Shown here piece by piece: positions 23,014 to 57,918 of a stretch of DNA of 64,000 bases. The translations under genes and the position numbers were made by a program. This stretch comes from Sphingobacteruim zhuxiongii (GTDB taxonomy: Bacteria; Bacteroidota; Bacteroidia; Sphingobacteriales; Sphingobacteriaceae). The DNA is taken from positions 124,001-188,000 of the forward strand of contig NZ_CP045652.1 in the NCBI RefSeq assembly GCF_009557615.1, given 5' to 3'. Position 1 is the first letter of the stretch. Each line of letters opens with the position of its first letter. The notes beneath the pieces are model-generated. The model did not search any database and was not told where the DNA came from. It saw only the letters and a program-made list of their open reading frames with translations.

Positions 23014-23044
23014 CAAATATATCAATTCTAGTTGTATATACAAG
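23014..23044 (-). promoter_or_regulatory. Promoter with GntR/UTRA-type operator for the DUF1080-to-kinase operon
   Basis: On the minus strand a Bacteroidota-type -7 box TATATTTG (23021 to 23014) follows a perfect 12-bp palindrome TTGTATATACAA (23032-23043). The palindrome starts with CTTG at 23044, 19 bp before the box, so its outer arm doubles as the -33 TTG. The core GT-A-TA-T-AC fits the HutC-subfamily consensus GTnTAnAC. The same palindrome recurs at 35929 and 57669. A bound repressor would cover the -33 element. Confidence 0.75.
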
Positions 23045-23058
23045 TTAAAATTGAATTT

Positions 23059-26001
23059 TTACTTAGAATCCCCCTTTTTGAGGTATTCAATTAAGTTTGC
23101 CATATCTTCTTTGGACATTGTTTTCTCAAGTCCATCGGGCATTAATGACAATCCAGAGTTGGTTAAGGACTCAATATTACTTCTCAGAACGGCTTCATCG
23201 GCACCTGTCGCGGTACGTAAAGTTAAGCCATTGTCGGTCTCTGAAACCACCCATCCAGACTTTGTGCTACCATCTTTTGTTTTCACAATAATCGATTGAT
23301 ATTGTGGATATACTTCATAGTTTGGCACTAATATATGCAATAACAGGGCGTCTGCTGGCTGATTTTTAATGCCAGAGAGGTCTGGTCCGACTTGTCCTCC
23401 TTTACCGCCATAGGTATGACATACAGCACATTGAGCTTGAAACATTGCGGCTCCTTTTGTTGCAATGGGTTTCGCATTTTTCAATACATTTTTATACTCT
23501 TCGTAGACAGCCATGCGGTCTCCGCCTTCCAATTCTTTGAATAGGGTTGTCGCTTTATCTGCAATCGCCTTATCCTTCATTTTCATGAGTCTAGTTCGAT
23601 CAATGGATGATATCTCTGCCGCTGCAATTTGTCCCTTTTCAATAGAGTTGAACAATACGGGCAAGAATGAACTATTTGAAATCAATGCCGCAATTACGGA
23701 TGGTTTTACCTTAGGCGAATAGGCTTTCCATTTGCTCTTCTCTGTTAATAATTCTGCTCCTTTAGGATCTTGTAAGTTGGCCAGGGCATTAATTGCTTGA
23801 ATTTGTACCTGTGGTGAATAATGAGCGTCCAACAATTGTTTTAAGGCATCATTGGACTGCTCATAGTTACTGTAACCTAATAGTGCGATTGCGCGGCTTT
23901 GTTTCTCGGCAGTATCTTTAAGAGCGACCTCTTTCAGTTTGCCGATAAAGCCGTCTAGATTATTGTTTGCTCCAGCTCCGATAGCGTAAAGTAAGCCTTT
24001 ACTGTTGGGCTTCAACTCTTGTTTTCTTCCTTTAATACCTTCGGCTAAGCCAAGCATTGCCGATATTTTCCATTCATCAACCGCCTCCGGCGTTACCAAT
24101 CGATTAAAAAAGCTAGAAGCTTCTGCAATGGTTCCACCATTTCCGAGTAAGCGTCCTAAATCTTGCATAACCGCAGCGTAAGCTTTCGGTTCGGCAGACT
24201 GTATACCGGCAAATGCGGCAATAAATTCCTGTGTACGTCCGGATAAACCGCTCAATACGGCTGCTCTACTCCATTTATCGGCACCATCTTTTGCTGCAAT
24301 TTTCGCTAATGCTTGTACGGATTCGTTGCTGTTAATATTGCCTAGGGCAATTGCCGTGTAGAAACGAACGCGTACCGATGGATCATCTGCTAATTTGAGA
24401 AGAGATGCTTTTGCTGTATCATATTTTGTATTCGTTGTCAAGATTTGAACAGCTTGTTCGCGAATTGGTGCATCAGCACTCGCTAGGGCTTGATTTAATG
24501 TCTCTACATTCAGGAGGCCAAGATTGTGTGCTAACCAAAGGGCGCGAGCTTTGCTTTCTGCATGGGTAGCGTTATTAATCGTTTCCTTCAGTTGTTCTGC
24601 GATATCTGTTGCTCGAGATTCAAGTAATAAGCGAAAAGCTGTTGCTCTTTTCCACTCATCAGCAGAACCTAATGCTTCCACTAGGTCTTTGCTGCTTGAT
24701 CCGGTTTCAACTTTTCCTGTTTTGTCTTCATCATCCTTATCGAAGTCTTCGCGAACTACTCGGTAAATTCTACCATCAGTTTTCCCAGCTTCGAAGTCTA
24801 GCTGACCTCGCATTTCCTCAGGAACATAGGCTGGATGGTCGATAACCTTTCTGTGCATATCAACGATATACAATGCTCCTTCAGGACCATGCTGCGCGTA
24901 AACAGGACGAAACCACTCATCTGTTGAAGCTAGAAATTCTTTGCCGTCGTTAGCAATTGAAGAGCTGAAGCTGGCACCGTTTTCTTTGACAACCTGACGT
25001 TGTACTAAGTTTTGTGCCGATTCACAGATAAAGATGTTTCCTTTATGTTCAGGCTTGAGCGCTGTACCGTTATATACAACTAAACCACTTGCTGCGGTAA
25101 AGGTACCTGTATGCGATTTTCCCATCAAATTGGGGATGTATTCTGCCGTTGTAACAGCCTTACTAATCGGATAGACTACAGCGTTGGCTTCTACGGGCGA
25201 TACATTCTGCACCATATCGTTGAATGTCAGGTGTGGGTTGCGCGATAGATTCCAGGGTTCCATTACGATTTGCATCACAGGATGTCTATTGGATGTTCCA
25301 AATCGGTGTCCGAAAGGATCTATTGTTAAACCAAACTGACTCTTTCCACCGGTGGATTGAAACTCCAAAGTTTCTGGATTAAATCGTCCATCTGCCGCAG
25401 TATAAACCACTGGAGGGCGATCCGGATGCTCGGGAGATGTTATGCTTCCTCCGTTTAATCCGCCAGTAACATAAATCCATCCATCTAAGCCAATGGTTGG
25501 ATGGCTCATTCGTATTTGTGAAGTTTTGGTGTCATTAAAGCCTGTTAGCACAGTCTTTTTAATATCTGCAACACCATCCCCGTCAGAATCTTTATAGTAA
25601 TAGATATGTGGGGCACAGGTGATAAAAACACCACCTTTCCAAGGTAAAATACCATTTGGATAGGTTAGGCCTGATGCAAATTCGTTTCTTTTATCATAAA
25701 CGCCATCCGCATCCGTATCTTCGAGTAAAACAATTCGACCTAAGGTAGTTGCTTCGCCTTCTTCAGCCGGATCTGGATATCCTCGATCCTCCACCACATA
25801 CATCTTTCGATTTTCATCAAAAGCGAATGCAACCGGGTCAATGACCATCGGTTCATAAGCTACAGGCTCAATTCGAAGACCCTCTTCCAGTTGGAAGGCG
25901 TCAAGCGCTTTCTGTATGCGCTCATTTTCATGTTTTTGTTTACAGCCGGCTAGCAATACAATCAGGGACGCGGCTAGGATAGGGTATTTCATTGGATTCA
26001 A
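23059..26001 (-). CDS. Propeller/HEAT/cytochrome c lipoprotein (PVC-type heme-binding family)
   Basis: This 980-residue lipoprotein (lipobox LIVLLAGC, Cys20) has three parts. The first (about 35-420) is a propeller-like membrane-bound-dehydrogenase domain with FAFDENRKMYVVEDRGYPDP and calcium-type loops DTDADGVYD and DSDGDGVAD. The second (about 430-830) is a series of alpha-helical HEAT-like repeats. The third is a C-terminal cytochrome c domain with the heme motif CAVCH (Cys858, Cys861, His862). It should sit in the periplasm or on a membrane and move electrons from a substrate oxidation. It is the last gene of the unit starting at 28972, 29 nt after a ceramidase-fold gene. A link to sugar or amino-sugar oxidation is inferred from context. 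Confidence 0.85.
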   Translation of the reverse strand: MNPMKYPILAASLIVLLAGCKQKHENERIQKALDAFQLEEGLRIEPVAYEPMVIDPVAFAFDENRKMYVVEDRGYPDPAEEGEATTLGRIVLLEDTDADGVYDKRNEFASGLTYPNGILPWKGGVFITCAPHIYYYKDSDGDGVADIKKTVLTGFNDTKTSQIRMSHPTIGLDGWIYVTGGLNGGSITSPEHPDRPPVVYTAADGRFNPETLEFQSTGGKSQFGLTIDPFGHRFGTSNRHPVMQIVMEPWNLSRNPHLTFNDMVQNVSPVEANAVVYPISKAVTTAEYIPNLMGKSHTGTFTAASGLVVYNGTALKPEHKGNIFICESAQNLVQRQVVKENGASFSSSIANDGKEFLASTDEWFRPVYAQHGPEGALYIVDMHRKVIDHPAYVPEEMRGQLDFEAGKTDGRIYRVVREDFDKDDEDKTGKVETGSSSKDLVEALGSADEWKRATAFRLLLESRATDIAEQLKETINNATHAESKARALWLAHNLGLLNVETLNQALASADAPIREQAVQILTTNTKYDTAKASLLKLADDPSVRVRFYTAIALGNINSNESVQALAKIAAKDGADKWSRAAVLSGLSGRTQEFIAAFAGIQSAEPKAYAAVMQDLGRLLGNGGTIAEASSFFNRLVTPEAVDEWKISAMLGLAEGIKGRKQELKPNSKGLLYAIGAGANNNLDGFIGKLKEVALKDTAEKQSRAIALLGYSNYEQSNDALKQLLDAHYSPQVQIQAINALANLQDPKGAELLTEKSKWKAYSPKVKPSVIAALISNSSFLPVLFNSIEKGQIAAAEISSIDRTRLMKMKDKAIADKATTLFKELEGGDRMAVYEEYKNVLKNAKPIATKGAAMFQAQCAVCHTYGGKGGQVGPDLSGIKNQPADALLLHILVPNYEVYPQYQSIIVKTKDGSTKSGWVVSETDNGLTLRTATGADEAVLRSNIESLTNSGLSLMPDGLEKTMSKEDMANLIEYLKKGDSK

Positions 26002-26030
26002 TTGATTATAATTTTTTTGCGGATAACAAA

Positions 26031-27476
26031 CTATTTATTGGCTTTATGATCGTTTAACAATCTCAACAATACTGCTAAAATCTTATCAGCTGCCGTTTCT
26101 TCTAAATAGCTAGAACGCGCTCTCCATGTTTCGTAACCGCCAAGTTTATGATGTTTAGCCGTTGGTAAGTATCCATTGTATCCATTTGCTAATTCAATAT
26201 TGAAGGTCGGCTTGAATGGACTTTTTGCTTTCAGCTCTAAACCGATTTCAACAAATACTTCAGCAGGTATCGCCGTAATTGCTAGGTCTCCAATTTTGAA
26301 TACTTGAAGGATTAAATCGACTTGATCAGGATAATCTTTCATCAGCAATGTTTCACGTGCATAAATTTCCTCCATTGATTGCATGGTTGGACCAGCAGCT
26401 TTCTTTACGATTGCTTCAGCGCGTTTAATCTCTTGAGCATTTGGCTTTCTAACGCCGAGTCTGATTTCTTCTTGTTTTGCCGCGAGTATAATGTTTTTTT
26501 GCTCAGGCGCATCTTTGATTGCTGAATAGGAAGCTTGAGCTACTTTATCTGCTACTTGACGTAACTTCTCATATGGGGCCAAGGATTGTGTTTTTTTTCC
26601 TGGCCAATTCACGTTGTTAATATCACCACTTGTACCGTTACTCATAATACCAACGAAAGGAGGATCGTTCTTTGTTTTTTCATTTACGATTAAGTCACCA
26701 ATACGTTCGGCGAATGCACCGTAATAATCAGCGGATATTTCTCCATTTCCAGTACCACCCACATAGTGTAGGGAGTAATTAGCAAGTACAGCAATTGGTT
26801 TTCCGTCTAAGGTTTTTAAATAAATACTAGGAACCTCTGGATCTATTGGTCCGGCCGGTTTTAACATATTTGGGTTTTCTACACCAGGGTTCATCTTTAC
26901 TTGGTCTTGACCACCGAAAGGGTTAGGCATAGGCGTGCCCGGTTTCATATACCAGCGGCGGTTGAAGACTTCAGTTTCTTCTTTTCCAACTCCCCAAGCA
27001 ATTTCTGCTGGGGCTCTATTTTCATAAGCACGAATTAAGGCGTCAGCAGTTCTTTCAACAAGAAAGTCTAAATAAGCCGGTTCTGGATCGCTCTGAAATA
27101 CTCCGCAGGCTGTTCCTGCGGAGTGAGTATGTGTTGCTGACATCATCATGTTTTGAACTGGAATCCCAGTAAATTCTGATGCTCTTTTTTTTGCTTTATC
27201 CAAAGTTTCTCGAGAAACCATACATAAATCTAAGACAACAAAGCCCAGTTTGGTCTGACCATCATCTAGCACTAATGCTCTCGCATGGATATCATCGTGA
27301 ATATTTCTAATCTTGGTGTCCTGCATGTTTCCATTGATAGAATATCCAATCTTTGGCGTAATATTGCTCGTTGCAGCACCCGCTTGAAACCCTTTCGCTG
27401 TCTTATTGTTTTGAGCGAACGCATGACTAGAGAAGAGGACTAAGATGAGTAGTAGTTTACAGACTGATGTTTTCAT
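26031..27476 (-). CDS. Exported neutral-ceramidase-fold protein (copy 1)
   Basis: This 481-residue protein has a signal peptide (about 1-21, ending HAFAQ) and the neutral/alkaline non-lysosomal ceramidase N-terminal domain. Zinc-ligand candidates are His116 and His118 in SATHTHSA and His237 in LANYSLHYVGG. The C-terminal GYNGYLPTAKHHKLGGYETW matches the region with the Glu and Tyr ligands. The family nucleophile motif GDVSPN is replaced by GDINNV (Asn287 at the Ser position), so classical ceramidase action is doubtful. It is also shorter than full ceramidases, lacking their C-terminal Ig-like domain. It lies between copy 2 and the cytochrome lipoprotein in one unit. The likely role is a metal-dependent periplasmic amidase or hydrolase. 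Confidence 0.82.
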   Translation of the reverse strand: MKTSVCKLLLILVLFSSHAFAQNNKTAKGFQAGAATSNITPKIGYSINGNMQDTKIRNIHDDIHARALVLDDGQTKLGFVVLDLCMVSRETLDKAKKRASEFTGIPVQNMMMSATHTHSAGTACGVFQSDPEPAYLDFLVERTADALIRAYENRAPAEIAWGVGKEETEVFNRRWYMKPGTPMPNPFGGQDQVKMNPGVENPNMLKPAGPIDPEVPSIYLKTLDGKPIAVLANYSLHYVGGTGNGEISADYYGAFAERIGDLIVNEKTKNDPPFVGIMSNGTSGDINNVNWPGKKTQSLAPYEKLRQVADKVAQASYSAIKDAPEQKNIILAAKQEEIRLGVRKPNAQEIKRAEAIVKKAAGPTMQSMEEIYARETLLMKDYPDQVDLILQVFKIGDLAITAIPAEVFVEIGLELKAKSPFKPTFNIELANGYNGYLPTAKHHKLGGYETWRARSSYLEETAADKILAVLLRLLNDHKANK

Positions 27477-27511: not shown

Positions 27512-28972
27512 TTAGTTCATCAAGGAGAAGAGATTGGTTAGCGTACCGAATATCTTTCTGGATGCTTCGATCTCTACACGATTTGTGCCCAACCAGGTCT
27601 CATAGCCACCTAATTTATGCTGCTCTGGAGTCGGTAAGTAACCATAGGATCCATTCGCGAAAGTGATAGTGAACGTTTTATTTTTTGGATATTGGGCTTT
27701 CAATGCTAGACCGCTTTCGGCAAATGTCTCAAATGGTATAGCGGCAATTTGAAGGTCTCCAATTCGGAAGGTTTGAAGGACAACAGATATTTCTGATGGC
27801 CATTCATTTTGAAGTTGTGTGATACGATCAGCGTAGGTGCGCTCCAAGGGATGATTGATTGGTTTAGCACCTTCTGGTAAAGCAAAGATTTGTTTTGCTA
27901 AAGCTAGCTGCTTCTCAGTAGGTTTTCTAACTGTGAGTTTTTGTTCCGACTGTTTTGCTTGTAGTTTCAACCAAGGTTGGTATTTCACACCTTGCAAAGA
28001 ACGGTGTACTTTTTCAGCGATATCATTTGCCACAAACTTCATCTTTTGATAAGGCGCGTCTTTAGGTGACTTTCCTTGTACATTGACGTTGTTAATGTCG
28101 CCAGAGGTACCGTTAGTCATGATGCCTACAAATGGCGTTTCTGTATTATCTTTTAACAACAGTTCTTGCATGCGATTCGCGAAAACTGCGAAGTAATCGG
28201 CGGAAATGTCATGTTTCGGAACACCACCAATGTAGTGCAGCGAATAATTTGCAAGAAGTGCTATGGAACGACCATCGAGTGCTTGGATGGATAGAAATGA
28301 AACTTCAGGATCCGTTGGGCCAGCAGGCTTTACAATTTCTGGATTTCCAATTCCGGGATTAAAGCGAACAGGTTCTTTCTCACCAAATGGATTCACGACT
28401 AGTTCTTTCATGTGCCATCTTCTGTTAAATACGTGTTCTGGAATATTAACAGAGCCCCATCCAATTTTTGCAGGCTCTAGTCGGTAGACCGCCATGTCTA
28501 CAGCATCTGCTATTCTAGTCGCGAGCAGGTCTTGATAGCGATCAAGTGGTTCGCCTTGCGACCAACCTCTACGTTTTGGACCTTCTCCTTCAGCGCTTGT
28601 TGCAGAATGGGTGTGAGTTCCAGCAATTAGAATATGATCGGTAGGGATTCCCGTTCTTTCGTTAATCTCTTGCTTGGCAGCATCGCATACTTTGCGCGCT
28701 AATCCAATATTATCACATATGATGAATGCAATTTTACTCTCTCCATCATCTAGGACTAGGCTTCGAGCGTGTAGCTCATCATGAATATTTTTTGCTTCAG
28801 GTGGAATTCCGAAATTTCCAACGATACCACCACCTAGATATGGCGTAATAACGGTTGTTGCAGCACCAGCTTTAAAAGTGCGCTGTTGTCCATAGCTCAT
28901 CGTTGCTGATAGCAAGCAGAGCACGGCAAGTAAGAGTTGACTTACTGTTTGTTTTTCAAGTTTTCTTTCCAT
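27512..28972 (-). CDS. Exported neutral-ceramidase-fold protein (copy 2)
   Basis: This 486-residue paralogue of the next gene carries a signal peptide (about 1-28, ending SYGQQ) and the same ceramidase-fold motifs: AGTHTHSA (His120, His122), ANYSLHYIGG, NGTSGDINNV in place of the Ser-containing GDVSPN, and GSYGYLPTPEQHKLGGYETW. It is the first gene of a three-gene unit with copy 1 (35-nt gap) and the cytochrome lipoprotein. Its own promoter carries a GntR/UTRA-type operator variant. Conservation of the metal ligands with parallel loss of the Ser nucleophile in both copies indicates a distinct reaction rather than decay. Confidence 0.82.
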   Translation of the reverse strand: MERKLEKQTVSQLLLAVLCLLSATMSYGQQRTFKAGAATTVITPYLGGGIVGNFGIPPEAKNIHDELHARSLVLDDGESKIAFIICDNIGLARKVCDAAKQEINERTGIPTDHILIAGTHTHSATSAEGEGPKRRGWSQGEPLDRYQDLLATRIADAVDMAVYRLEPAKIGWGSVNIPEHVFNRRWHMKELVVNPFGEKEPVRFNPGIGNPEIVKPAGPTDPEVSFLSIQALDGRSIALLANYSLHYIGGVPKHDISADYFAVFANRMQELLLKDNTETPFVGIMTNGTSGDINNVNVQGKSPKDAPYQKMKFVANDIAEKVHRSLQGVKYQPWLKLQAKQSEQKLTVRKPTEKQLALAKQIFALPEGAKPINHPLERTYADRITQLQNEWPSEISVVLQTFRIGDLQIAAIPFETFAESGLALKAQYPKNKTFTITFANGSYGYLPTPEQHKLGGYETWLGTNRVEIEASRKIFGTLTNLFSLMN

Positions 28973-29083: not shown

Positions 29084-29114
29084 CAAATATACAACTTGTG
29101 TAGACAAGAACAAG
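29084..29114 (-). promoter_or_regulatory. Promoter with operator variant for the ceramidase-fold/cytochrome unit
   Basis: On the minus strand a -7 box TATATTTG (29091 to 29084) has a TTG 19 bp upstream (29113 to 29111). Between them lies CTTGTGTAGACAAG (29095-29108), a 12-of-14 match to the palindrome CTTGTATATACAAG seen at 23032, 35929 and 57669. Here the operator fills the spacer instead of forming the -33 element, but binding would still block RNA polymerase. Confidence 0.6.
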
Positions 29115-29148: not shown

Positions 29149-30675
29149 TTATTTATGTTCAGGAGGCACATTGCCATATCCCCATGCTTGTTTGAATGCT
29201 GGAGGAGCAGGTGGGCTTGGTACTTTCCCTGGTGTCATCTGATTTGCTAATTCGATCCCGGTATTTGCGATTTGCCGACCGGCTGAAACCTCTAGGTTTG
29301 AATACGAAGTTAGACGCGTTTCATAACCCCCTCCGTTAGGCCCCATGGCTTCCTCGGTTGGAACATAACCTACGCAACCATTGGCTAGCTCCACGATAAA
29401 GGTAAATGGGAATCGGCTACCCTTTTTTATGTCTAGACCAAATTGAACGAAGTATTCCGCTGGATTGGAAACAAAGGCAACGGGACCGACCTGTATTGCT
29501 TGGACTTCCACCTCAGCTTTGGGTCTTTTTTTGATCATTGCGTCTAATAGAAGCGTTTCCTTTGCAAAAATCCAATCTACGCTTCCCGCCTTTTCGGGGC
29601 CTAGTTTTATTAATTCCCAGGATTTTTTAACTTTTTCTTTTGTTGGTATACGTCGGTTTACCGTCCATACTTTTTGTCTAGAATCTAAAGGAATATCCTT
29701 TCCAGCACCTCGTTTAGCGAGTAACATCGTTTTGTATGCCTCTGCGCCAACGCGTCCGCCCACTAATTCCCACCATTCTTCCGCGGAAGGGTTAGCTGTT
29801 GTCGCTTTGTTATCAACCTGGGTGATATCTCCACAGGCACCTTGCGTGAATACAACAGGTAGTGCAGCATTGCCGGTAACCCCGCGTAGTGTTCTTTCCA
29901 TGGCGCCAATCCAGTTCGCAGATATTCCATCAGGATTGGTGGTCGCGTGGCAAGCGAAGTTGACAACCATGCCCAACAGATTGTCATTCATATCCCAAAC
30001 GCCAATGGTGCCTACATCGGGGTCGATGGGTCCGGCATAATCTAACATATCGGGATTTCCTACACCAGGATGAGTGTACGTTAGCCCGTTTTTCATGCGC
30101 ATTCGTCGATTAAAGGAGACTTTATCCTCGTGGCCTACACCAACTGCGAGTTTCGCATCTTGACGATTTGCATCGGCTTCTACTACCGCAGCAATTATTT
30201 GTTGTTGTAATTTTTGGATAAAGCCGGGGTCTGAAACGATGGACATATTTGTCGCCAAATGTTTAATCGTAGGATCAGCATCATCAAAATCTCCAGGCTC
30301 GGACATCGCGATAGGACCAGAAGAATGCGAGTGTGATGCCCCGATCATGATATCCTTTCCAAGGATACCACAAGCGGCTTCAATTTCAGCACGGCTGATT
30401 TCGACTACCCTACGCGTGACGAACAAGAGATCCAGACCAACAATGGCAACTCTTTTTTTGCCATCGTCGAAAACGACGGCGCGGACTTTACATTGATCAT
30501 GAAACTTTTTATGATAGCTTTTTCCATAGTTTCCAGGTTGTTCCATTCCTATATCTGGGGTAATGTCTTTTTCAGAGAATCCCGCTTTAAAGGTTGGATC
30601 TGCTCCTTCGAACGCGCTTGCGAACATGGGAGATAGCAGCAAGATTGTAAGTAATGAAGTGATTATATTTTTCAT
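29149..30675 (-). CDS. Exported neutral-ceramidase-fold protein (copy 3, divergent)
   Basis: This 508-residue secreted protein (signal about 1-21, ending FASAF) is the most divergent of the three ceramidase-fold proteins. It keeps the metal-site motifs (GASHSHSS and VNFACHATT) and the C-terminal ANGCVGYVPTEEAMG followed by GGYETRL. At the nucleophile position it reads GDITQV, with Thr in place of Ser, so a Thr-based or water-based mechanism is possible. It is the last gene of the susCD unit (35596 to 29149), 23 nt after SusD. Cotranscription with an importer suggests it processes the ligand taken up by that SusCD pair. Confidence 0.82.
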   Translation of the reverse strand: MKNIITSLLTILLLSPMFASAFEGADPTFKAGFSEKDITPDIGMEQPGNYGKSYHKKFHDQCKVRAVVFDDGKKRVAIVGLDLLFVTRRVVEISRAEIEAACGILGKDIMIGASHSHSSGPIAMSEPGDFDDADPTIKHLATNMSIVSDPGFIQKLQQQIIAAVVEADANRQDAKLAVGVGHEDKVSFNRRMRMKNGLTYTHPGVGNPDMLDYAGPIDPDVGTIGVWDMNDNLLGMVVNFACHATTNPDGISANWIGAMERTLRGVTGNAALPVVFTQGACGDITQVDNKATTANPSAEEWWELVGGRVGAEAYKTMLLAKRGAGKDIPLDSRQKVWTVNRRIPTKEKVKKSWELIKLGPEKAGSVDWIFAKETLLLDAMIKKRPKAEVEVQAIQVGPVAFVSNPAEYFVQFGLDIKKGSRFPFTFIVELANGCVGYVPTEEAMGPNGGGYETRLTSYSNLEVSAGRQIANTGIELANQMTPGKVPSPPAPPAFKQAWGYGNVPPEHK

Positions 30676-30698: not shown

Positions 30699-32333
30699 CT
30701 ATTGCCATCCTGGATTTTGTTTCAAGTTTGGATTCAATGTGAGCTCTTGTGTAGGAATTGGATATTGATACAATCTGTTATTCCATTTTCTTGCAGTGAA
30801 TCCGGGGTAAATTTCTCTAAGCTTTCCATCGGCTGGATTTCTTGCCCCTAGAATCGTTTTTGGGTTTTCAAGTAGCTTACCAGCTTTCCATCGTACGATA
30901 TCATTCCATCGATCACCCTCTGCAGAGGTTTCGATTCTACGTTCTCGACGTATTTCATTTAAAAGAGGAGAAATTGCTTCTTCCCATTGTGGCCAATTTG
31001 GATCTGTAAAGCCAACATTCACCGTTAAGTGAGGCATCTTTACGCGATCGCGTAAAAGATTGATAGTGCCATCGAGGATAGCTTGTGTACACTCTCCAAG
31101 TTCCGCTTTCGCTTCCGCATAATCGAGCAGTACTTTTCCGTATCGGAAGATAAAATCATCGATGATAGACGTACTAGGGAGACGGTCTTTTTCGTAGGGA
31201 CTGTATCCCTTGATAATAAAATAACTTGTCGGACAATTCGCATTTAAGAATTCAGGCATAATCTTATTATTGACCGTGCCGTTATCATAGATTCTGTAGG
31301 GGCGGGCTTCATGGTAAATAGATTGACGCATCCTAGGGTCACGATTTACAAATTCTGCGGCAAAAGTGGCATCTCCTTGATAAAGGGGGCTGATTCCGAT
31401 TGGCAGACCATCAGCACATAAGTAGGAATCTACGAAGTCCTTACTATAGCCGGTTTGTGGCTCACCTAATTGACGTACATTATTATGCATGCGCTTGTCG
31501 GTAACGAAGCGTTGCACCATGATGCCTTCTGTATTACCTTTCAGTTCATATTGAACAAATAAATCGAAGAAATCATTCTCTGCTTTCCCTGTTTTGTAGA
31601 CTGAGAATAGTTTCGAGTTAATAATCTGTTCTGCGGCACTTGTTGCTAGCTTTAGAAGTGCTTCATGCCCTGTTCCAACTTTATGATATTTGCGGAAGGT
31701 ACCCTCGTATAGGGCAACTTCTGTTTTCAGCGCTAATGCGGCATATTTAGTAACTCGGTCTGTTGCAGAATTCTCTGGAAGATTCGCAATTGCAAAGTCT
31801 AAATCTGCGATTATGTTATTGGTTACCGTTTCGCGGGTATCTCTTGGAGCGGTTAATTCTGCCGACTCGGGTGTTAAAGCGCTATTAATCCAAGGAACTT
31901 CACCAAACATCTTCAGTTTTTCAAAGTAATGGAAGGATTTGAAAAAACGTATTTCTGCTTCGGCGGTCTTTAGAGCAGCATCTGTTATCGTCATTGCCGC
32001 GATGCGGTCTAACGCATAGTTACATCGACGAATTTGAAGCCAGTCTGCTTTTCCCCATCCTCCGTCTGTTGCTGGAACGTTATATTCATTCCAGGTATAT
32101 ATATTTCTGCTACTAGGGACTTGATTGTCACTCGCGTTGTCAATATTAAACCATGCTAATCGAGCGTCATAAAGTGTCGCATAGAATTGATTAGCATACA
32201 TTTCAACGTCTGATGCGCTTTTCCAAAAAGTGGCATCGCTAATTTCATCAAGGGGGTATTTTTCTAAGAAATCATCGTTACAGGACGTGGCTAAGAGTAT
32301 AGCCAACAAACCTATTTTATATATCTTGTTCAT
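30699..32333 (-). CDS. SusD/RagB-family nutrient-binding lipoprotein of the GntR/UTRA regulon
   Basis: This 544-residue lipoprotein starts at the ATG at 32333, which gives MNKIYKIGLLAILLATSC with a lipobox at Cys18. A longer in-frame start at 32459 would overlap the upstream susC and hide the signal. SusD features include EKYPLDEISDATFW, RFFKSFHYFEKLKMFGEVPW, the C-terminal RRERRIETSAEGDRWNDIVRW, and YPIPTQELTLNPNLKQNPGW. It should sit on the SusC encoded 26 nt upstream as a surface lid. The ceramidase-fold protein gene follows. The ligand is unknown; it is likely the conjugate processed by the neighbouring exported enzymes. Confidence 0.94.
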   Translation of the reverse strand: MNKIYKIGLLAILLATSCNDDFLEKYPLDEISDATFWKSASDVEMYANQFYATLYDARLAWFNIDNASDNQVPSSRNIYTWNEYNVPATDGGWGKADWLQIRRCNYALDRIAAMTITDAALKTAEAEIRFFKSFHYFEKLKMFGEVPWINSALTPESAELTAPRDTRETVTNNIIADLDFAIANLPENSATDRVTKYAALALKTEVALYEGTFRKYHKVGTGHEALLKLATSAAEQIINSKLFSVYKTGKAENDFFDLFVQYELKGNTEGIMVQRFVTDKRMHNNVRQLGEPQTGYSKDFVDSYLCADGLPIGISPLYQGDATFAAEFVNRDPRMRQSIYHEARPYRIYDNGTVNNKIMPEFLNANCPTSYFIIKGYSPYEKDRLPSTSIIDDFIFRYGKVLLDYAEAKAELGECTQAILDGTINLLRDRVKMPHLTVNVGFTDPNWPQWEEAISPLLNEIRRERRIETSAEGDRWNDIVRWKAGKLLENPKTILGARNPADGKLREIYPGFTARKWNNRLYQYPIPTQELTLNPNLKQNPGWQ

Positions 32334-32359
32334 TATGTTTGTTTTTAAATGAATCCTGA

Positions 32360-35300: not shown

Positions 35301-35596
35301 TGAGCATCTGTTGATGTGGCGGCGGATGATCCTTTAATCTTTACGCTGACACCTTCAAGCGGTACACCTTCCGCATTTCGGACGGTTCCAGTCAATGTTT
35401 TTTGTTGAAAAATGTTGTTGATTACAACATTTGTTTTCTTGAGCGATTTGCCCTTCATGGAGGACAAGTACGTATCACGATCCGTGTCGGAATAAGCCGA
35501 TAAGGATCCCGTGCACATTACCAAGCCAGCGCTGATAAAGAAAACACGGAGGATTCGCGATAGATGCTCTTGGCTGCTAATCTGTTCCATATGCAT
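32360..35596 (-). CDS. SusC-family TonB-dependent transporter of the GntR/UTRA regulon (copy A)
   Basis: The preferred start is the ATG at 35596 (MHMEQISSQEHLSRILR). It matches the start of the paralogue at 57342, and the longer frame from 35725 runs through the conserved leader. The 1078-residue product has a signal segment (about 15-36), a carboxypeptidase-regulatory-like domain (TLTGTVRNAEGVPLEGVSVKI), the TonB-box/plug start DVVVIGYGTQKKENLTGA, LKDAASAAIYGARAAYGV, and a barrel ending FGANFSF. The N-terminal 40 residues and the leader are strikingly similar to the other SusC of the regulon, while the barrel differs. It therefore likely imports a related but distinct ligand. SusD and a ceramidase-fold protein follow in the same unit. 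Confidence 0.93.
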   Translation of the reverse strand: MHMEQISSQEHLSRILRVFFISAGLVMCTGSLSAYSDTDRDTYLSSMKGKSLKKTNVVINNIFQQKTLTGTVRNAEGVPLEGVSVKIKGSSAATSTDAQGGYGLQSSGTDQTLVFSTVGYVTQELPISSTGITDVTLQSDVTSIGDVVVIGYGTQKKENLTGAVSTVTSEVLESRPITTLGQGLQGTAPNLNVTQSSGAPGKAATFNVRGNTSINGGGPLVLVNGIPMDPNLISPSDVESVTILKDAASAAIYGARAAYGVILITTKSGKNDKPVISLSTLFSTNTPTSKIDFIDTKDRIAYMNEASMRVNGRNYFDDITMEAMMAHYNDPSKPNSIIHPSSLDEWRGVANTNWEDVLMSKSYPMQQHTASITGGSEKFDYYSSFSFIKQNGLTNKDLFDEYYKRYNFMTNLNYHIKEWITVGTKVSINNGNKHFPPNDSQFRSSFPEDGTIYQTNVYSTQPVKDPNGNWAHEGSIFNPAQMLSEGGYQTRHVNDMWMTGLVKITPIKEITINVDYSFNNKTTKQMSYLAKQPFYNVKGDVMGYYGGSNPSRVSRSNYDDRYYVFNAYADYTKTFAEKHNFKVMVGFNQEHAQYNSVTAERRNLIINNVPYMNLASGDRFAYDGIDEYAIRGAFSRINYSYADRYLIEFNGRYDGTSKFAQRDRFAFFPSVSVGWRIDNEAFFEPLKSSINQLKFRASYGNLGNQNVTGYYPYIATMSAAEVNYLLNGDRPMSVYAPGLVSSTLTWETVTQKNFGVDFGLLNNRLNGSFDFYTRDTKDMLTKSQTLPAVIAETEPQANAADLRTTGFDLSINWNDKVGEFSYGITGILSDYYAEITRFNNPVGLISDYYVGAKMGNIWGLTTGGLFQTDQEALALDQSNINGRKRQAGDLWMVDINGDGKITRGTQTLGDPGDMSIIGNNTPRYSFGLRTNFAWKGFDMDIFFQGVGKRDLVISNLYYLTQYSNEWVGIPKTAMDYWSPENPNAFYPRPIIAGAADITTVQTRYLQNAAYLRLKQVTLGYTLPQELTQKISSDRIRVFFTGSNLFTWTKMIKISDPELPGPSAYPMFRSFSFGANFSF

Positions 35597-35912: not shown

Positions 35913-35942
35913 TAAATATAATAAAATACTTGTATATACAAG
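35913..35942 (-). promoter_or_regulatory. Promoter with operator for susC copy A
   Basis: On the minus strand the palindrome CTTGTATATACAAG (35929-35942) is followed after 18 bp (counted from its CTTG) by TATATTTA (35920 to 35913), a one-base variant of the -7 box. The outer arm CTTG supplies the -33 TTG. The geometry is identical to the promoter at 57653-57682. Confidence 0.72.
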
Positions 35943-36031: not shown

Positions 36032-36045
36032 CATGTATATACAAG
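36032..36045 (-). promoter_or_regulatory. Upstream auxiliary operator for susC copy A
   Basis: CATGTATATACAAG differs from the palindrome CTTGTATATACAAG at one base and lies 103 bp upstream of the promoter copy. A similar upstream copy occurs at 57781-57794 in the paralogous region, 112 bp from its promoter site. Paired sites at this distance could support looping or cooperative repression. Confidence 0.6.
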
Positions 36046-47449: not shown

Positions 47450-47459
47450 TATTCGTCGA

Positions 47460-50756: not shown

Positions 50757-50771
50757 AATGGATTATATTGG

Positions 50772-50829
50772 ATTATGTATAACATAATATACAATACTCA
50801 AATGTAAGACATAATACTTTATTTCCAAA
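50772..50829 (-). promoter_or_regulatory. nan operon promoter with two FadR-type operators
   Basis: On the minus strand a -7 box TACATTTG (50806 to 50799) has TTTG 19 bp upstream (50829 to 50826). Palindrome ATTATGTATAACATAAT (50772-50788) lies just downstream of the box. A second, weaker copy AATGTAAGACATA (50801-50813) overlaps the box. Both share ATGTnnnACAT and resemble FadR-subfamily sites of the GTnnnAC type. The divergent FadR-type gene at 50898 is the obvious candidate binder. Confidence 0.65.
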
Positions 50830-50897
50830 TTTTTTTTAATATACTTGTCTAAGTTTTAGCAATAATTGAATTGCGTAATTAATTAGTATACTACTAT

Positions 50898-52723: not shown

Positions 52724-54208
52724 TTAAAAGCCTGTGTTTTGCTTTAGTTTTCCTTGACTGATGTCGATTTCAGACTGCGGTATTGGGAAGAGTTCATTAA
52801 TACCATCACGAAAATTCTTTCCTTTATTACTATTATATTTTAAAGAATAGGCGCGCATGACAAGACCAGCTCTCTTTTGTCGAATAAGGTCGAAGTAGCG
52901 AATGTTCTCCATGGCATATTCAACCCTTTGCTCTTGCCAGATCGCTTTTTTCAAATCTTCTTTATTTGTTACCGTGACAAGAGGTAATATGTTGTTGTTT
53001 CCCTCTCTCGCACGAACACGAACCTCATTGAGTGACTTTAAAGCATCTTGTGTTTTACCAACTTCGTTGGCCGCTTCAGCATGCCATAATAACAACATAC
53101 CATAACGATAAAGTAGCTCATTCTTTCCAGAATGTCTAGCGTCGCCAGTAACCGGAAATTCCGACTCCAAAAGATATGCTTTCTTGTTCATATATCCCGT
53201 TTCGCTAATTCCAACATCAGCTGTTACACCGTCTGGCATAATATCATTCTGCTTATAAACCGTATGTCCCTTTCGAGGATCTCCTGGTTCGAAGGCATCC
53301 ACAAGGTCTTGTGTAGGATTTGCAAAGCCATAGCCATACATTGCCGTGCTGCCTTGTCTTAGTTGATTCAGATTCGTTGTGTTGTTGAATTGAGCGTCGT
53401 ATACATAATTTACTTCAAATATATTTTCGCGTCCAAAGTCAGATTCTGTACTAAATATATCGTAATACTTAGGGGTCAAGCTATAAGCTTTGGAATCTAT
53501 AACTTTCTTTAGCCATATTTCCGCTTGTGCGAAGTCGCCTTTATAGAGGTAGACTTTCCCTAAATAAGCCTCAGCGGCTCCTTTCGTTGCCCGTGCTTTT
53601 TCACCTGCAGCTAAATTTGCTTTTTCAGGTAGAATTCCGCTAGCGAAAGTTAAGTCTTGAATAATTAAGTCGTATACCAATTCCTTTGAGCTACGCTCAA
53701 AATTTTGTTCAACCTGTTCTGCTTTATCAATCAAAGGAACATCGCCGTATAGGGTCACTAAGTTGAAATAGTAAAAAGCGCGAAGGAAGCGCCCTTCTGC
53801 AAGAATTCTTTGTTTAGCATTGTCATCCATGGCAATTTGGGGCACCTTCTCAATGACAATGTTTGCGCGACGAATTCCCAAAAATGAACTTTTCCAAACT
53901 TGCGACGCGATGGTGTTTGATGAAGTTAAAGTAGAATAAGCAATCTCGTTAAAATAGCCTCCATCACTAGGTCCTTCTCCGCCTTTTTCGGCATTGTCGG
54001 CAGCAATGTCGTAGATAGAATAGCCACTCATTCCATTGTAATTTAACATAGGGTTGTATGCCGCAACAAGGGCTTTATTGGCATCGTTAGCTGTTGAGAA
54101 TGCCGATTCAACCGACATCTCACCTAGGGGTTGCTTATCGAGGAAATCGCCGCAACTTAAGAATAAAGTGCTACTTGCTAATATGATGATCTGATGAAAT
54201 CGTTTCAT
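52724..54208 (-). CDS. SusD/RagB-family lipoprotein (regulon copy B)
   Basis: This 494-residue lipoprotein (lipobox TLFLSC, Cys19) is the SusD partner of the SusC encoded 23 nt upstream. Hallmarks are GDFLDKQPLGEMSVESAF, GRFLRAFYYFNLVTLYGDVPL, RVEYAMENIRYFDLIRQKR and ELFPIPQSEIDIS. The transcription unit seems to contain only these two genes. Control is by the UTRA-type operator set at 57669-57881, which links it to the distant catabolic block at 15.5-35.6 kb. Confidence 0.95.
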   Translation of the reverse strand: MKRFHQIIILASSTLFLSCGDFLDKQPLGEMSVESAFSTANDANKALVAAYNPMLNYNGMSGYSIYDIAADNAEKGGEGPSDGGYFNEIAYSTLTSSNTIASQVWKSSFLGIRRANIVIEKVPQIAMDDNAKQRILAEGRFLRAFYYFNLVTLYGDVPLIDKAEQVEQNFERSSKELVYDLIIQDLTFASGILPEKANLAAGEKARATKGAAEAYLGKVYLYKGDFAQAEIWLKKVIDSKAYSLTPKYYDIFSTESDFGRENIFEVNYVYDAQFNNTTNLNQLRQGSTAMYGYGFANPTQDLVDAFEPGDPRKGHTVYKQNDIMPDGVTADVGISETGYMNKKAYLLESEFPVTGDARHSGKNELLYRYGMLLLWHAEAANEVGKTQDALKSLNEVRVRAREGNNNILPLVTVTNKEDLKKAIWQEQRVEYAMENIRYFDLIRQKRAGLVMRAYSLKYNSNKGKNFRDGINELFPIPQSEIDISQGKLKQNTGF

Positions 54209-54231: not shown

Positions 54232-57200
54232 CTAAAATCCAAATCCAAGACCTAAAGTCACAATTCGGGGTTGTGGGTAAAATCCATTATCCACACCAAG
54301 ACTTAATGGTGTCGATGGTGCACCAATCTCAGGATCATATCCCCGATATTTGGTGAACGTTAATAGATTTTGTCCGGAAGCATATACTCTTAGATTCTTT
54401 ACATGACCTGAAAATGCTGTCGGGAAAGTGTAACCCAATTGTGCATTTTGTAGGCGGAGGTACGAACCATCCTCGACGTAATATGAAGAAGGACGCATGT
54501 TATTGTTTGGATCATTTACATTAAGTCGAGGGTATTCATTAGTCGTTCCGGCTCCTTTCCAAGCGTTGAACATTTCGGTGTCGTAATTATAGAAATTACT
54601 ACCATGGGTGAAGTATTTCCAATGAGCAATCAACTCGTTGCCCCAAACTCCATTGAACGCAAGACTCATGTCAAAATTGTTCCAGCTGACACGTCCATTT
54701 ATTCCGTAATTGAAGTCTGGCCATGGGTTTCCAATAGTTGTACGATCGCTTTGGTTAATGATTCCATCGTTGTTTAAATCTTTGTATCTAATGTCTCCAG
54801 GTGCTGTGCTTGGAGCTTGAGTTGCGTGTGCTTTTACTTCATCTATTGTTTGGAAAATGCCATCCATTACATAGCCATAAAATGAAGCGATAGGTTCTCC
54901 AACAGCCGTTCTCGAGTAGCTTCCACTGAATAAAGCAGCTTGTTGATTACTCAACTTGGTGACTTCATTGATGTTTCTCGCGAGGTTGAATGAAACTTCG
55001 TATCTGATGCCTTCCGAGTTGCCGTTATTGTAACCAATCATAAATTCGAAACCATGATTGCGTACGTCTCCACCATTCACAAAAGGTGCTGTCTGAATAC
55101 CTAGGTAATCGGCCACAGGAACACGTAGGAGCATGTCCATCGTGCGTTTATCATAGTAACCAGCAGCGATATTTATTCGATTGTTGAAACCAGTGAAGTC
55201 AATACCCACCTCTGTTTCTTTGGTTGATTCCCATTTTAGATTTTCATTACCGAGACTTGTTGGAGCGTGTCCTTGCGTTACTCGATCTCCCATGGGATAG
55301 ACTATATTTTGTGCTACGCTATTCGCAAAGGCGTAGTTAGGCAATGAGTTTTGGTTACCTAACATACCCCATCCAGCGCGTAATTTTAAATCATTGATAA
55401 AGCCAACATCTTTTAAGAATTCCTCATCCGATAAGCGCCATCCAACAGAAAATGAAGGGAAAATACCATAGCGGTTATTTTTTCCAAATCTAGAGGACCC
55501 ATCGACTCTCATGTTACCGGTGAATAGGTACGTTCCTTTATAATCGTAGTTTACTCTTCCTAAGAAAGATACCATACTATAGTCGCCAGCTCCCCCAGTA
55601 GCAAGATTGCCACTACGTGCCAAATCTAGGTATCTAAGGTTTTCGTCGAAATTGGCATTTTCAGGAAGCCCCTCACCACGAGCAGTAATGTTCTCTTCTT
55701 GATTTCTGAGTACAGTAAAACCAGCTAAAGCATCGAAATGATGATCGGCAAAGTTTGTATTATAGGTCAATGTATTCTGCCAGTCCCAATTGGTAAATTG
55801 TGTATTGGTTCTACTAATGCTTGATACTAGATTTCTTTGTAATGGAAAGATGTCATAGGTAGGGACAAAAACATAGCCGTTTGAAATACCGAAGTTCAAA
55901 TTGTATTGGCTTCTAAAAACCAATGATGGTAGTAGTTTTACGTCAATAAATGCAGATCCATTTAAAACAGGTCTTTTTATCGTGTTATTATACAACTCGA
56001 GCTCTGCAACAGGGTTTTTCGTGTCTGAAAATTGTGGAAAGCCCCAAGAACCATTTGGGTTCTTAACCGGAGTGTTCGGATCCATTGCCCAAGCATTCGG
56101 AATAGGGTTTCTATCGCCAAATTCTGGTATCACGTTACTCTTTCCCCGACTCAAGGAAATGTTCTCACCAATTTTGACAGCAGGACTTAAATTGTATTCC
56201 GAATTAATACGAAAGGTAATTCGCTCATAATCGGATTTCATGACAATACCCTCTTGATTAAAATAGCTTCCAGAAAGATAAAATTTGCCATTACTGTTGC
56301 CGCCGGAAAGAGATAACTCTCCACTATTGATTTTTGCCGTGCGGAAAATAGCATCTTGCCAATCTGTACCTACACCTAAGCTTTGAACATCAGAGAAAAT
56401 AGGGCTTTTACCTCCGTTAACGAGGGCTTCGTTATAAAGAGTTGCATACTCTTGTCCATTTGCTACGTCTAATTTATTATGAATGGATTGAATCCCGGAA
56501 TAATAACTTACAGAAGCATTAACGCCTTCTTTTCCAGATTTTGTGGTAATGAGAATAACCCCATTTGCACCTTGCGCACCGTAAATCGCCGCCGCTGACG
56601 CACTTTTTAATACTTCGATAGATTCAATATGGTTAGGGTCTAAATCGCGAGGATCAACGCCTATATTGCCGTCCACAACGTAGAGCGGAGAAGCGTTGTT
56701 CACCGTACCGGCACCGCGGATTCGAACCATCAATGAAGCGCCAGGTGAACCTGAGTTTTGAATAATTTGCGCGCCGGGTACTTTTCCTTGAATGGCTTGA
56801 CCAGCTTGTAATACCGGATAATCCTTAATTGTTTTTGCAGATACAGTGGAGATTGAAGAGGTTACATTCCTTTTCTTTTGTGTTCCATATCCGATTACAA
56901 CGACATCTCCTATGGAGGTCACATCAGATTCTAAAACAGCGTCCGTAACGCCTGATGAAGAAATAGTAATTTCTTGAGAAAGGTAACCTACAGCGCTAAA
57001 TACAAGTGTATTGCTGTTGCCTGTAGATTCTAGTTGATACTGTCCAAGTTCATTTGTAGACGTTCCAGTGTTAGATCCTTTAATTTTGACGCTGACACCT
57101 TGAATGGGACCACCATCCGTACTGCGAACAGTTCCAGATAATGATTTCTGCCATCGATGGTCCGAATGGTTATTTGCGTTGAGTTTGAGCACATTGACCT

Positions 57201-57342
57201 TGAATGATGACAAGTGCGCGTCGTTGGAGCTATCGGAGTATGCCGATATATTTTCGCTGCCGAGTAGCAACCCGGCGCTGATGAACATTACTCGTAGAAT
57301 ACGGGATAATGGCTCTTGACTACTAATTTTTTCCATATGCAT
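54232..57342 (-). CDS. SusC-family TonB-dependent transporter of the GntR/UTRA regulon (copy B)
   Basis: This 1036-residue protein begins MHMEKISSQEPLSRILR, almost the same as copy A at 35596. It continues with the signal segment, a carboxypeptidase-regulatory-like domain (SLSGTVRSTDGGPIQGVSVKI), DVVVIGYGTQKKRNVTSS, LKSASAAAIYGAQGANGV, and a barrel ending LGLGFGF. The N-terminal region and the structured leader are shared with copy A, whereas the barrel is clearly different and some 40 residues shorter. It is divergent from the GntR/UTRA gene, with three operators between them. It likely imports another form of the regulon's substrate. Confidence 0.95.
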   Translation of the reverse strand: MHMEKISSQEPLSRILRVMFISAGLLLGSENISAYSDSSNDAHLSSFKVNVLKLNANNHSDHRWQKSLSGTVRSTDGGPIQGVSVKIKGSNTGTSTNELGQYQLESTGNSNTLVFSAVGYLSQEITISSSGVTDAVLESDVTSIGDVVVIGYGTQKKRNVTSSISTVSAKTIKDYPVLQAGQAIQGKVPGAQIIQNSGSPGASLMVRIRGAGTVNNASPLYVVDGNIGVDPRDLDPNHIESIEVLKSASAAAIYGAQGANGVILITTKSGKEGVNASVSYYSGIQSIHNKLDVANGQEYATLYNEALVNGGKSPIFSDVQSLGVGTDWQDAIFRTAKINSGELSLSGGNSNGKFYLSGSYFNQEGIVMKSDYERITFRINSEYNLSPAVKIGENISLSRGKSNVIPEFGDRNPIPNAWAMDPNTPVKNPNGSWGFPQFSDTKNPVAELELYNNTIKRPVLNGSAFIDVKLLPSLVFRSQYNLNFGISNGYVFVPTYDIFPLQRNLVSSISRTNTQFTNWDWQNTLTYNTNFADHHFDALAGFTVLRNQEENITARGEGLPENANFDENLRYLDLARSGNLATGGAGDYSMVSFLGRVNYDYKGTYLFTGNMRVDGSSRFGKNNRYGIFPSFSVGWRLSDEEFLKDVGFINDLKLRAGWGMLGNQNSLPNYAFANSVAQNIVYPMGDRVTQGHAPTSLGNENLKWESTKETEVGIDFTGFNNRINIAAGYYDKRTMDMLLRVPVADYLGIQTAPFVNGGDVRNHGFEFMIGYNNGNSEGIRYEVSFNLARNINEVTKLSNQQAALFSGSYSRTAVGEPIASFYGYVMDGIFQTIDEVKAHATQAPSTAPGDIRYKDLNNDGIINQSDRTTIGNPWPDFNYGINGRVSWNNFDMSLAFNGVWGNELIAHWKYFTHGSNFYNYDTEMFNAWKGAGTTNEYPRLNVNDPNNNMRPSSYYVEDGSYLRLQNAQLGYTFPTAFSGHVKNLRVYASGQNLLTFTKYRGYDPEIGAPSTPLSLGVDNGFYPQPRIVTLGLGFGF

Positions 57343-57645: not shown

Positions 57646-57652
57646 AGTTAAA

Positions 57653-57682
57653 CAAATATAATAAAATACTTGTATATACAAG
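57653..57682 (-). promoter_or_regulatory. Promoter with perfect operator for susC copy B
   Basis: On the minus strand the perfect palindrome CTTGTATATACAAG (57669-57682) supplies a TTG, which is followed after 18 bp by the -7 box TATATTTG (57660 to 57653). A repressor on this site would mask the -33 element. Site and spacing equal those at 35913-35942. Confidence 0.78.
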
Positions 57683-57780
57683 AGATTGAATAAAAATATT
57701 TTATTTTTATTGCAAATAATGATATAAGTGCAATTAAAGCAATTGTTTAGGTTGGTTTATACAATTAGTTTTAATTTTTA

Positions 57781-57794
57781 TATGTATATACAAG
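57781..57794. promoter_or_regulatory. Auxiliary operator in the susC copy B/GntR intergenic region
   Basis: TATGTATATACAAG keeps the core TGTATATACAAG of the regulon palindrome with two changes in the outer left arm. It lies midway between the promoter-proximal sites at 57669 and 57868 and resembles the upstream site at 36032. Confidence 0.6.
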
Positions 57795-57867
57795 TTTGTA
57801 TTTAATTGTAATTTACGTGAAATCAGAAGCTTAATTCATTGCCGTTGAATCATGTCTGTTACATGGG

Positions 57868-57918
57868 CCTGTATATACAAGAAAAGGCTTGAAAAATCAT
57901 TACAGTTAACTATATTTG
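57868..57918 (+). promoter_or_regulatory. GntR/UTRA gene promoter with operator
   Basis: A -33 TTG (57889-57891) lies 19 bp before the -7 box TATATTTG (57911-57918); the regulator ATG is at 57940. Directly upstream sits CCTGTATATACAAG (57868-57881), a one-base variant of the regulon palindrome. This indicates that the regulator controls its own gene. Confidence 0.72.

Follow-up and report, generated by a model that had tools for sequence, protein, structure and literature searches.

A predicted GntR/UTRA regulon of SusCD uptake and sugar-catabolic genes in Sphingobacteruim zhuxiongii

Sus-type polysaccharide utilization loci (PULs) of Bacteroidota are usually regulated by hybrid two-component systems, by extracytoplasmic function (ECF) sigma/anti-sigma pairs or by SusR-like proteins. 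A 2015 survey of three GntR subfamilies counts a single HutC-type regulator from Bacteroidetes (PMC4494728), so that a regulon under a UTRA-domain protein in this phylum would fill a gap. PMC4333415 describes the Bacillus subtilis repressor NagR (YvoA) as reading a G at operator position -5 with Arg38 and a G at -4 with Arg48, anchoring its wing in the minor groove with Gly69, and contacting the phosphate of its effector through Thr90, Arg133, Arg135, Ser165, Ile166 and Tyr167. Here we analyse a 64,000-nucleotide stretch of Sphingobacteruim zhuxiongii DNA (the window; bases 124001-188000 of a single-contig 4,322,926-base genome, called G000 in our genome sample), in which seven palindromes are very probably the operators of a GntR/UTRA protein encoded at 57940, which is predicted to repress its own gene together with four units of 16 genes until a sugar phosphate appears.

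The palindrome query was the 14-mer CTTGTATATACAAG, with the reversed pattern as control. Sites resembling it begin at 23031, 29095, 35929, 36032, 57669, 57781 and 57868, with 1, 2, 0, 1, 0, 2 and 1 mismatches, respectively; four intergenic gaps within 35 kb hold them all, and the GT-N4-AC spacing is kept in 7 of 7. A sequence-only reading of this DNA had claimed seven intergenic palindromes with a HutC-type core, placed before catabolic units or before the regulator, and all of this was recovered, the first site starting at 23031 rather than 23032. A mechanical open reading frame (ORF) at 57357-57689 overlaps site 57669 and is unsupported. The sites and their predicted promoter elements are as follows.

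57868..57881: operator CCTGTATATACAAG before the regulator gene; -33 TTG at 57889-57891, -7 box TATATTTG at 57911-57918
57781..57794: predicted auxiliary site TATGTATATACAAG, 112 base pairs (bp) upstream of the SusC2 operator
57669..57682: perfect operator in the minus-strand promoter of SusC2-SusD2; includes the -33 TTG at 57681-57679, -7 box TATATTTG at 57660-57653
36032..36045: predicted auxiliary site CATGTATATACAAG, 103 bp upstream of the SusC1 operator
35929..35942: perfect operator in the minus-strand promoter of SusC1; includes the -33 TTG at 35941-35939, -7 box TATATTTA at 35920-35913
29095..29108: operator CTTGTGTAGACAAG within a -33/-7 spacer; -33 TTG at 29113-29111, -7 box TATATTTG at 29091-29084
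23031..23044: operator GTTGTATATACAAG (CTTGTATATACAAC on the minus strand); includes the -33 TTG at 23043-23041, -7 box TATATTTG at 23021-23014

Perfect palindromes occur twice in the whole genome, both times in this stretch, and the reversed control never occurs. With up to one mismatch the genome holds six places, five of them inside the 35 kb, compared with one for the control. With up to two mismatches it holds 27 places versus 23 for the control, and a two-mismatch copy therefore cannot mark a site elsewhere in the genome; at the control density about 0.2 sites would be expected per 35 kb, and seven are seen. The genome-wide scan proposed in the sequence-only reading thus bears it out for perfect and one-mismatch copies, which concentrate here, and fails to do so for two-mismatch copies, which elsewhere stay at chance level. 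Within the window alone, up to three mismatches give 8 sites versus 4.0 expected, a count that 5 of 100 shuffles reach and that by itself is weak. Five copies outside the window were inspected. Those at 209928 and 382392 lie inside coding sequences, and the one-mismatch copy at 3690004 (CTTGTAAATACAAG), which stands before what reads as a gene for an efflux-type membrane fusion protein, was set aside as a probable chance site. Two two-mismatch sites 143 bp apart (3923263 and 3923406), near a paralogue of the 23059 protein, were rejected as a distant member because they overlie an apparent remnant of a sigma-factor-like coding sequence and because the paralogue locus of a relative (G083) has no site at up to two mismatches. 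At another place in the genome, a paralogue of the 23059 protein is preceded by a short remnant (L092:8162-8416, minus strand) resembling the start of a sigma-factor gene.

The pairing of palindrome and regulator was then followed across genomes. A scan of genome contigs for relatives of the 57940 protein gave 23 loci, of which L017-L038 are the 22 orthologue loci. A perfect CTTGTATATACAAG stands before 22 of 22 orthologues (56-82% identity), 14-262 bases before the matched start, in four genera (Sphingobacterium, Parapedobacter, Pedobacter and Mucilaginibacter), and no palindrome at up to two mismatches accompanies a 25%-identity relative from a Clostridiales genome bin. The nearest regulators are those of Sphingobacterium humi (82%) and of two members of the organism's own genus (85% and 94%). 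Among 151 genomes, all of one family, the perfect palindrome is present in 10 of 10 that carry the regulator (E <= 1e-40) versus 1 of 141 that do not, and the reversed control is found in none of the 151; in the lone exception (G043) the palindrome lies inside a protease-like coding sequence. The ten regulator genomes together contain 24 perfect copies, each on the same contig as the regulator and no more than about 45 kb away from it. When up to one mismatch was allowed in 20 chosen genomes, there were 3-9 copies in each of the ten with the regulator (control 0-1) versus 0-2 in the ten without it (control 0-2). The nine other regulator-bearing genomes were all mapped around the locus, over 38-60 kb each. 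The 14-mer at 57868 is identical before the regulator in G064, G083 and L017, that at 29095 is identical and in the same place in G064 and G083, and the 23031 operator is identical in these same two genomes. Parapedobacter genomes have two to four sites before the regulator. One-mismatch copies were inspected in G141 (all seven off the main contig), in G057 and in one case from G078. A one-mismatch site precedes what reads as a sugar MFS-type transporter gene in G057 and G091. In G141, a Mucilaginibacter genome whose stretch is the same assembly as L023, three of the seven copies stand before likely targets on separate contigs (L098, L099 and L102; by their sequence a GH92-like, a DUF1549-type cytochrome and a phosphodiesterase-like gene), one stands before a cytochrome c-like gene and one lies near the start of a secreted protein, so that the regulon of this genome possibly extends beyond the main contig.

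The position of the palindromes relative to promoters suggests how they may act. Boxes of the form TAnnTTTG were scanned on both strands around 58 distinct sites (40 perfect, 16 with one mismatch and two with two mismatches), offsets being counted from the operator's first base. Seven L loci identical to G assemblies were dropped, and identical cores with their flanks were counted once; the two-mismatch sites are 29095 and 57781 of the window only, added by hand, those of other genomes being left out. An exact box lies at +22 to +24 in 31 of the 58 sites and at +27 to +29 in 8 more, compared with 0.17 boxes per offset elsewhere. In the first group, which comprises several genera, the operator's own TTG lies 18-20 bp before the box, in the place of a -33 element, so that a bound repressor would cover that element; the second group includes the aldolase operons of G003, G045, G057, G078, G091 and G141. 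Of the 40 perfect sites, 34 have a -7 box within one or other of these favoured offset ranges, mostly with the operator over the -33 TTG. The earlier proposal that the outer TTG forms the -33 element at three sites in the window agrees with what is found, namely TTG-19-TATATTTG at 23031, TTG-18-TATATTTG at 57669 and TTG-18-TATATTTA at 35929, where the box has one mismatch.

The predicted repressor itself is encoded as follows.

57940..58656, plus strand: GntR/UTRA (HutC-subfamily) regulator of 238 amino acids, predicted repressor; Pfam GntR PF00392 65.4 bits and UTRA PF07702 73.4 bits, both above cut-offs

Its start ATG at 57940 corresponds to about residue 9 of the mechanical ORF, where most orthologue matches begin. 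It had been called the only UTRA-type regulator of the stretch, and a whole-genome profile search makes it the sole UTRA match of the entire genome. All 17 NCBIfam models that match it score below their cut-offs, and it is therefore not a known equivalog; the second-best of them is TreR (TIGR02404), with 98.6 bits versus a cut-off of 211.95. Among proteins of solved structure, its best-scoring relative is NagR of B. subtilis (64 bits). In an alignment of 25 regulators (the window, G064, G083 and L017-L038), the residues aligned with the three DNA-reading positions of NagR are Asn36, Arg46 and Gly67, invariant in 25 of 25. With a T at -5 and a G at -4 in the perfect operator, the residues are consistent with the site: Arg46 would serve the G at -4, and Asn36 replaces NagR Arg38 where T replaces G at -5. 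The equivalents of the phosphate contacts (Thr88, Arg131, Arg133, Ser164, Leu165 and Phe166) are likewise each invariant in 25 of 25, four being identical to NagR and Leu and Phe replacing Ile and Tyr. From the invariance of these six clamp positions we infer that the effector is a phosphorylated sugar, a prediction by alignment.

On the minus strand, site 57669 precedes susC2-susD2, 35929 precedes susC1-susD1 and the gene of ceramidase-like protein 1, 29095 precedes three genes, which encode ceramidase-like proteins 2 and 3 as well as the haem-binding HEAT/cytochrome c protein, and 23031 precedes eight genes. With 57868 before the regulator on the plus strand, this amounts to 16 genes in four units plus the regulator, and the two adjacent susC and susD genes form two pairs in the regulon. 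We infer the operon grouping from gene order and strand. The members, all on the minus strand, are listed below.

54232..57342, minus: SusC2, SusC-type TonB-dependent receptor (Pfam Plug, TonB_dep_Rec_b-barrel)
52724..54208, minus: SusD2, SusD-type lipoprotein (Pfam SusD_RagB 104.4 bits)
32360..35596, minus: SusC1, SusC-type receptor (TIGR04056 881.3 bits)
30699..32459, minus: SusD1, SusD-type lipoprotein (Pfam SusD_RagB 142.7 bits)
29149..30675, minus: secreted neutral-ceramidase-like protein 1 (no Pfam match; 25% and 31% identity to ceramidase-like proteins 2 and 3)
27512..28972, minus: neutral-ceramidase-like protein 2 (Pfam Ceramidase_alk 52.3 bits)
26031..27476, minus: neutral-ceramidase-like protein 3 (Pfam Ceramidase_alk 48.8 bits)
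23059..26001, minus: PVC-type haem-binding protein with HEAT repeats and a cytochrome c domain (Pfam DUF7133, HEAT_2, Cytochrom_C; TIGR02604 and TIGR02603 above cut-off)
22070..22894, minus: 3-keto-disaccharide hydrolase family protein 2 (PF06439 88.6 bits)
21449..22048, minus: 3-keto-disaccharide hydrolase family protein 1 (PF06439 138.7 bits)
20353..21435, minus: GFO/IDH/MocA oxidoreductase 1 (best NCBIfam likeness UDP-GlcNAc 3-dehydrogenase, below cut-off)
19368..20297, minus: NagB-like (amino-sugar deaminase-like) protein (TIGR00502 31.0 bits versus a cut-off of 236.9; no Pfam match)
18593..19360, minus: PIG-L/BshB1-like sugar N-deacetylase (PF02585 94.2 bits; TIGR04001 119.8 bits, below cut-off)
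17726..18565, minus: class I DeoC/DhnA-type aldolase, conserved core (PF01791 126 bits; 80-93% identity in nine mapped relatives)
16578..17729, minus: GFO/IDH/MocA oxidoreductase 2, conserved core (nearest solved relatives include scyllo-inositol/L-glucose dehydrogenase)
15523..16551, minus: PfkB-family sugar kinase, conserved core (PF00294 112.2 bits)

The likely start of SusC1 is the ATG at 35596, which aligns with the SusC2 start in leader alignments; the mechanical ORF begins at 35725. Pfam names no glycoside hydrolase family among the 16 genes, and GH92 and GH2 occur in the clusters of relatives. Elsewhere in the window, the product of 7281-8441 combines an HD domain with a PycTM (Pycsar effector-type transmembrane) domain.

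In the mechanism that we favour, the 57940 protein would bind over or beside the -33 elements and block them by occlusion. The inducer would be a phosphorylated sugar made by the pathway itself, so that a basal level of uptake and phosphorylation would take the repressor off the DNA and switch on the SusCD transporters, the secreted proteins and the cytosolic aldolase-oxidoreductase-kinase core at the same time. The sites at 36032 and 57781, predicted to be weaker and auxiliary, would strengthen repression of the susC operators through cooperativity or a DNA loop. The 16 genes are predicted to serve the uptake and oxidative breakdown of a sugar-containing compound. The earlier claim of one GntR/UTRA regulon of about 17 genes (the 16 and the regulator) is thus supported at the level of sequence by the orthologue palindromes, the co-occurrence, the -33 geometry and the NagR-aligned residues.

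Several observations weigh against this mechanism. No exact box at the two favoured offsets is found for 19 of the 58 sites, and five of these 19 are window sites: 35929, 29095 (in the spacer), 57868 (upstream of the -33), 36032 and 57781. The genomes are related, and the 58 sites are therefore not independent. At three sites (36032, 57781 and 57868) the palindrome lies clear of any -33 element, that at 57868 lying 7 bp upstream of the regulator's own, and neither 36032 nor 57781 has a good promoter. Sites 29095 and 57781 rest on conservation and place, the motif being at chance level with two mismatches, and 57781 has the same letters in G083 and no counterpart at up to two mismatches in G064. 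Two of the seven inspected G141 copies lie in or next to apparently unrelated genes. At position 28 of the GntR domain, which by our own mapping corresponds to NagR Arg38, the survey reports that Arg prefers G-C and that Asn goes weakly with A-T, without statistical significance (PMC4494728). Finally, the aldolase (E <= 1e-70) is present in 20 of 151 genomes, all 10 with the regulator and 10 without it.

These observations allow other explanations to be weighed. That three of the seven sites lie upstream of a -33 element, like the multiple sites before the Parapedobacter regulators, would fit an activator or dual regulator, whose binding at 36032, 57781 and 57868 aids RNA polymerase while the -33 sites fine-tune; we regard this as unlikely, because the prevailing arrangement of the perfect sites, over the -33 TTG at favoured -7 distances, is the place for occlusion and because the characterised relative NagR is a repressor (PMC4333415). 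The weak window count at three mismatches and the chance-level two-mismatch copies elsewhere might suggest AT-rich sequences arising by chance with no common regulator. Perfect copies beside the regulator across genera, at a fixed distance to a -7 box, make this the least credible explanation, and 29095, 36032 and 57781 are the only sites that chance might yet explain on the data at hand.

A different regulator could also own the palindromes, such as the FCD-type GntR protein at 50898 or an unseen global factor, given that a second GntR protein is encoded in the same stretch and that GntR-family sites resemble one another. This is improbable on several counts. The spacing between GT and AC is typically three bases in FadR-subfamily sites and four in HutC sites (PMC4494728), as here; G064 has the sites and the UTRA gene, yet nothing in its mapped 60 kb matches the sialic-acid operon or the FCD gene; palindrome presence tracks the UTRA gene in the 151 genomes; and the gap before the FCD-linked operon contains no match at up to three mismatches (see below). 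It is equally doubtful that the regulator is TreR, the repressor of trehalose use, in a cluster for the breakdown of trehalose or a similar disaccharide. The core 12-mer is the same as the TreR box of Bacillus licheniformis, TTGTATATACAA or ATGTATATACAA (PMC11356801), TreR ranks high among the NCBIfam models, and BT2157 of the DUF1080 family is a 3-ketotrehalose hydrolase (PMC9007349). Set against this are the low TreR score, the aldolase, oxidoreductase and kinase core with deacetylase and NagB-like genes, for which trehalose breakdown has no evident need, and the presence of the same regulator in six mapped relatives with a lyxose-isomerase-like gene. We return to a predicted repressor at 57940 that would be released by a sugar phosphate.

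The genes that travel with this predicted repressor point to a conserved core with a variable entry step. In six of the nine mapped relatives (G003, G045, G057, G078, G091 and G141), a perfect site stands directly before genes for the aldolase, a GFO/IDH oxidoreductase, an isomerase and PfkB, the isomerase-like protein matching Lyx_isomer with 164.9 bits, and no PIG-L/NagB-like pair is found in the mapped stretch. In the window, G064, G083 and G099, the site precedes a longer operon ending in aldolase, oxidoreductase and kinase, with the PIG-L/NagB-like pair and no isomerase in the mapped stretch. Of the 22 L loci, 14 have the aldolase in their 10 kb flank; the isomerase is present at 13 of these and the pair at none, the contig ending in the case of L028; G078 has a 53% PIG-L homologue just beyond its mapped stretch. 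These arrangements suggest that the kinase and aldolase receive a ketose either from the isomerase or from the deacetylase-deaminase pair. The ten aldolase genomes that lack the regulator have no palindrome before the aldolase (loci of about 1.5 kb on each side), two of them having a two-mismatch copy inside an oxidoreductase gene, and the pathway can therefore live without this switch. Least certain is the substrate. Of trehalose, mannosides, inositol and amino-sugar glycosides we weakly prefer the last: the presence of a PIG-L/NagB-like pair and of 3-keto-disaccharide hydrolases points, with low confidence, perhaps to an N-acetylamino-sugar glycoside opened via a 3-keto intermediate.

A sialic-acid operon (36178-50756) separates the regulon blocks, with neuraminidase-like, GH20, epimerase, acetylesterase-like, MFS, NanM-like, NanA-like, SusD and SusC genes and its own FCD-type (NanR-like) GntR gene at 50898, the two together spanning 36178-51614. 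It is probably not a member of the regulon, since the gap before it (50756-50898) has no palindrome at up to three mismatches and since it has its own FCD regulator; the earlier count of 17 genes also excludes it. In G064, susC1 lies directly beside the regulator, and susC2, like the sialic-acid operon and the FCD gene, is unmatched in the mapped 60 kb. SusC1 and SusC2 share 33% protein identity. Over nine 50-column blocks reaching from the operator to the first codons, leader included, their DNA is on average 72% identical (48-92%), compared with 55% in the 20 blocks that follow; the 28 bases spanning operator to -7 box are nearly alike. We propose that a block with the sialic-acid operon and susCD2 appears to have arrived beside the regulator carrying a copy of an operator-promoter-leader cassette, the contrast in identity being moderate.

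The two susC leaders (35600-35910 and 57345-57650, minus strand; estimated at about 305 bases) have in common a putative hairpin of nine pairs, TATGAGAAG/CTTCTCCATA, and a further pairing, TCCAAAT/ATTTGGA. The nine pairs of the hairpin are invariant, with little covariation, and the SusC1 copy has no Rfam match over the gathering score. At zero mismatches the leader motif occurs only in G000 (two copies) and G064 among the 151 genomes. A leader peptide MRRP...LLHTC was rejected because its frame is not kept in G064, G083 and L017.

More broadly, and as a tentative proposal that we hold with less than even confidence, a family of uptake loci in Bacteroidota may be governed by a UTRA repressor that senses sugar phosphates and has its operator fused to the -33 element, with a fixed aldolase-oxidoreductase-kinase core, an entry step that is either a lyxose-type isomerase or a deacetylase-deaminase pair, and new SusCD pairs joining by capture of the operator-promoter-leader cassette. 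If true, this would amount to a sugar pathway that is new and undescribed and carries a portable switch of its own. The predicted regulon would itself give SusCD uptake loci a locally encoded repressor and, because the natural inducer is expected to be a pathway intermediate, provide a handle on the unnamed aldolase-kinase sugar pathway. Among the papers searched, none joins GntR and UTRA with polysaccharide utilization, and none joins them with Bacteroidetes, regulon and operator all together, which is no proof of absence from print.

Compared with known systems, the locus resembles NagR, the GntR/HutC repressor of N-acetylglucosamine (GlcNAc) use, in its GntR and UTRA domains, its several operators, the deacetylase and deaminase genes under its predicted control, and the equivalents of Arg48, Gly69, Thr90, Arg133, Arg135 and Ser165. 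It differs in having Asn for Arg38 and T at operator position -5, where the NagR/DasR operator has GG at -5/-4, in its perfect palindromes, native dre sites being imperfect (PMC4333415), and in its targets, SusCD uptake and an aldolase pathway with no phosphotransferase transporter among them. With TreR of Bacillus it shares GntR and UTRA domains, the box TTGTATATACAA (PMC11356801) within 23031, 35929 and 57669, and the ATGTATATACAA variant at 36032 and 57781; unlike TreR, it scores far under the family cut-off and has other target genes. As in Sus-type PULs, SusC/SusD pairs, secreted proteins and catabolic genes would stand under one local switch, but that switch is a one-component UTRA protein, and no hybrid two-component, ECF-sigma/anti-sigma or SusR-like protein is found in the Pfam results of the 38 window ORFs scanned. 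In 3-ketoglycoside systems (B. thetaiotaomicron BT2157 and Caulobacter CCNA_01705; PMC9007349), dehydrogenase genes likewise lie beside PF06439 (DUF1080) hydrolase genes; here, GFO/IDH 1 is far below the BT_2158 and BT_2159 family cut-offs, and deacetylase, NagB-like, kinase and aldolase genes are added. Overall, this is a well-supported predicted regulon of HutC/UTRA type with a TreR-box-like operator, which is ordinary in principle and, as far as the searches show, new in its targets and lineage.

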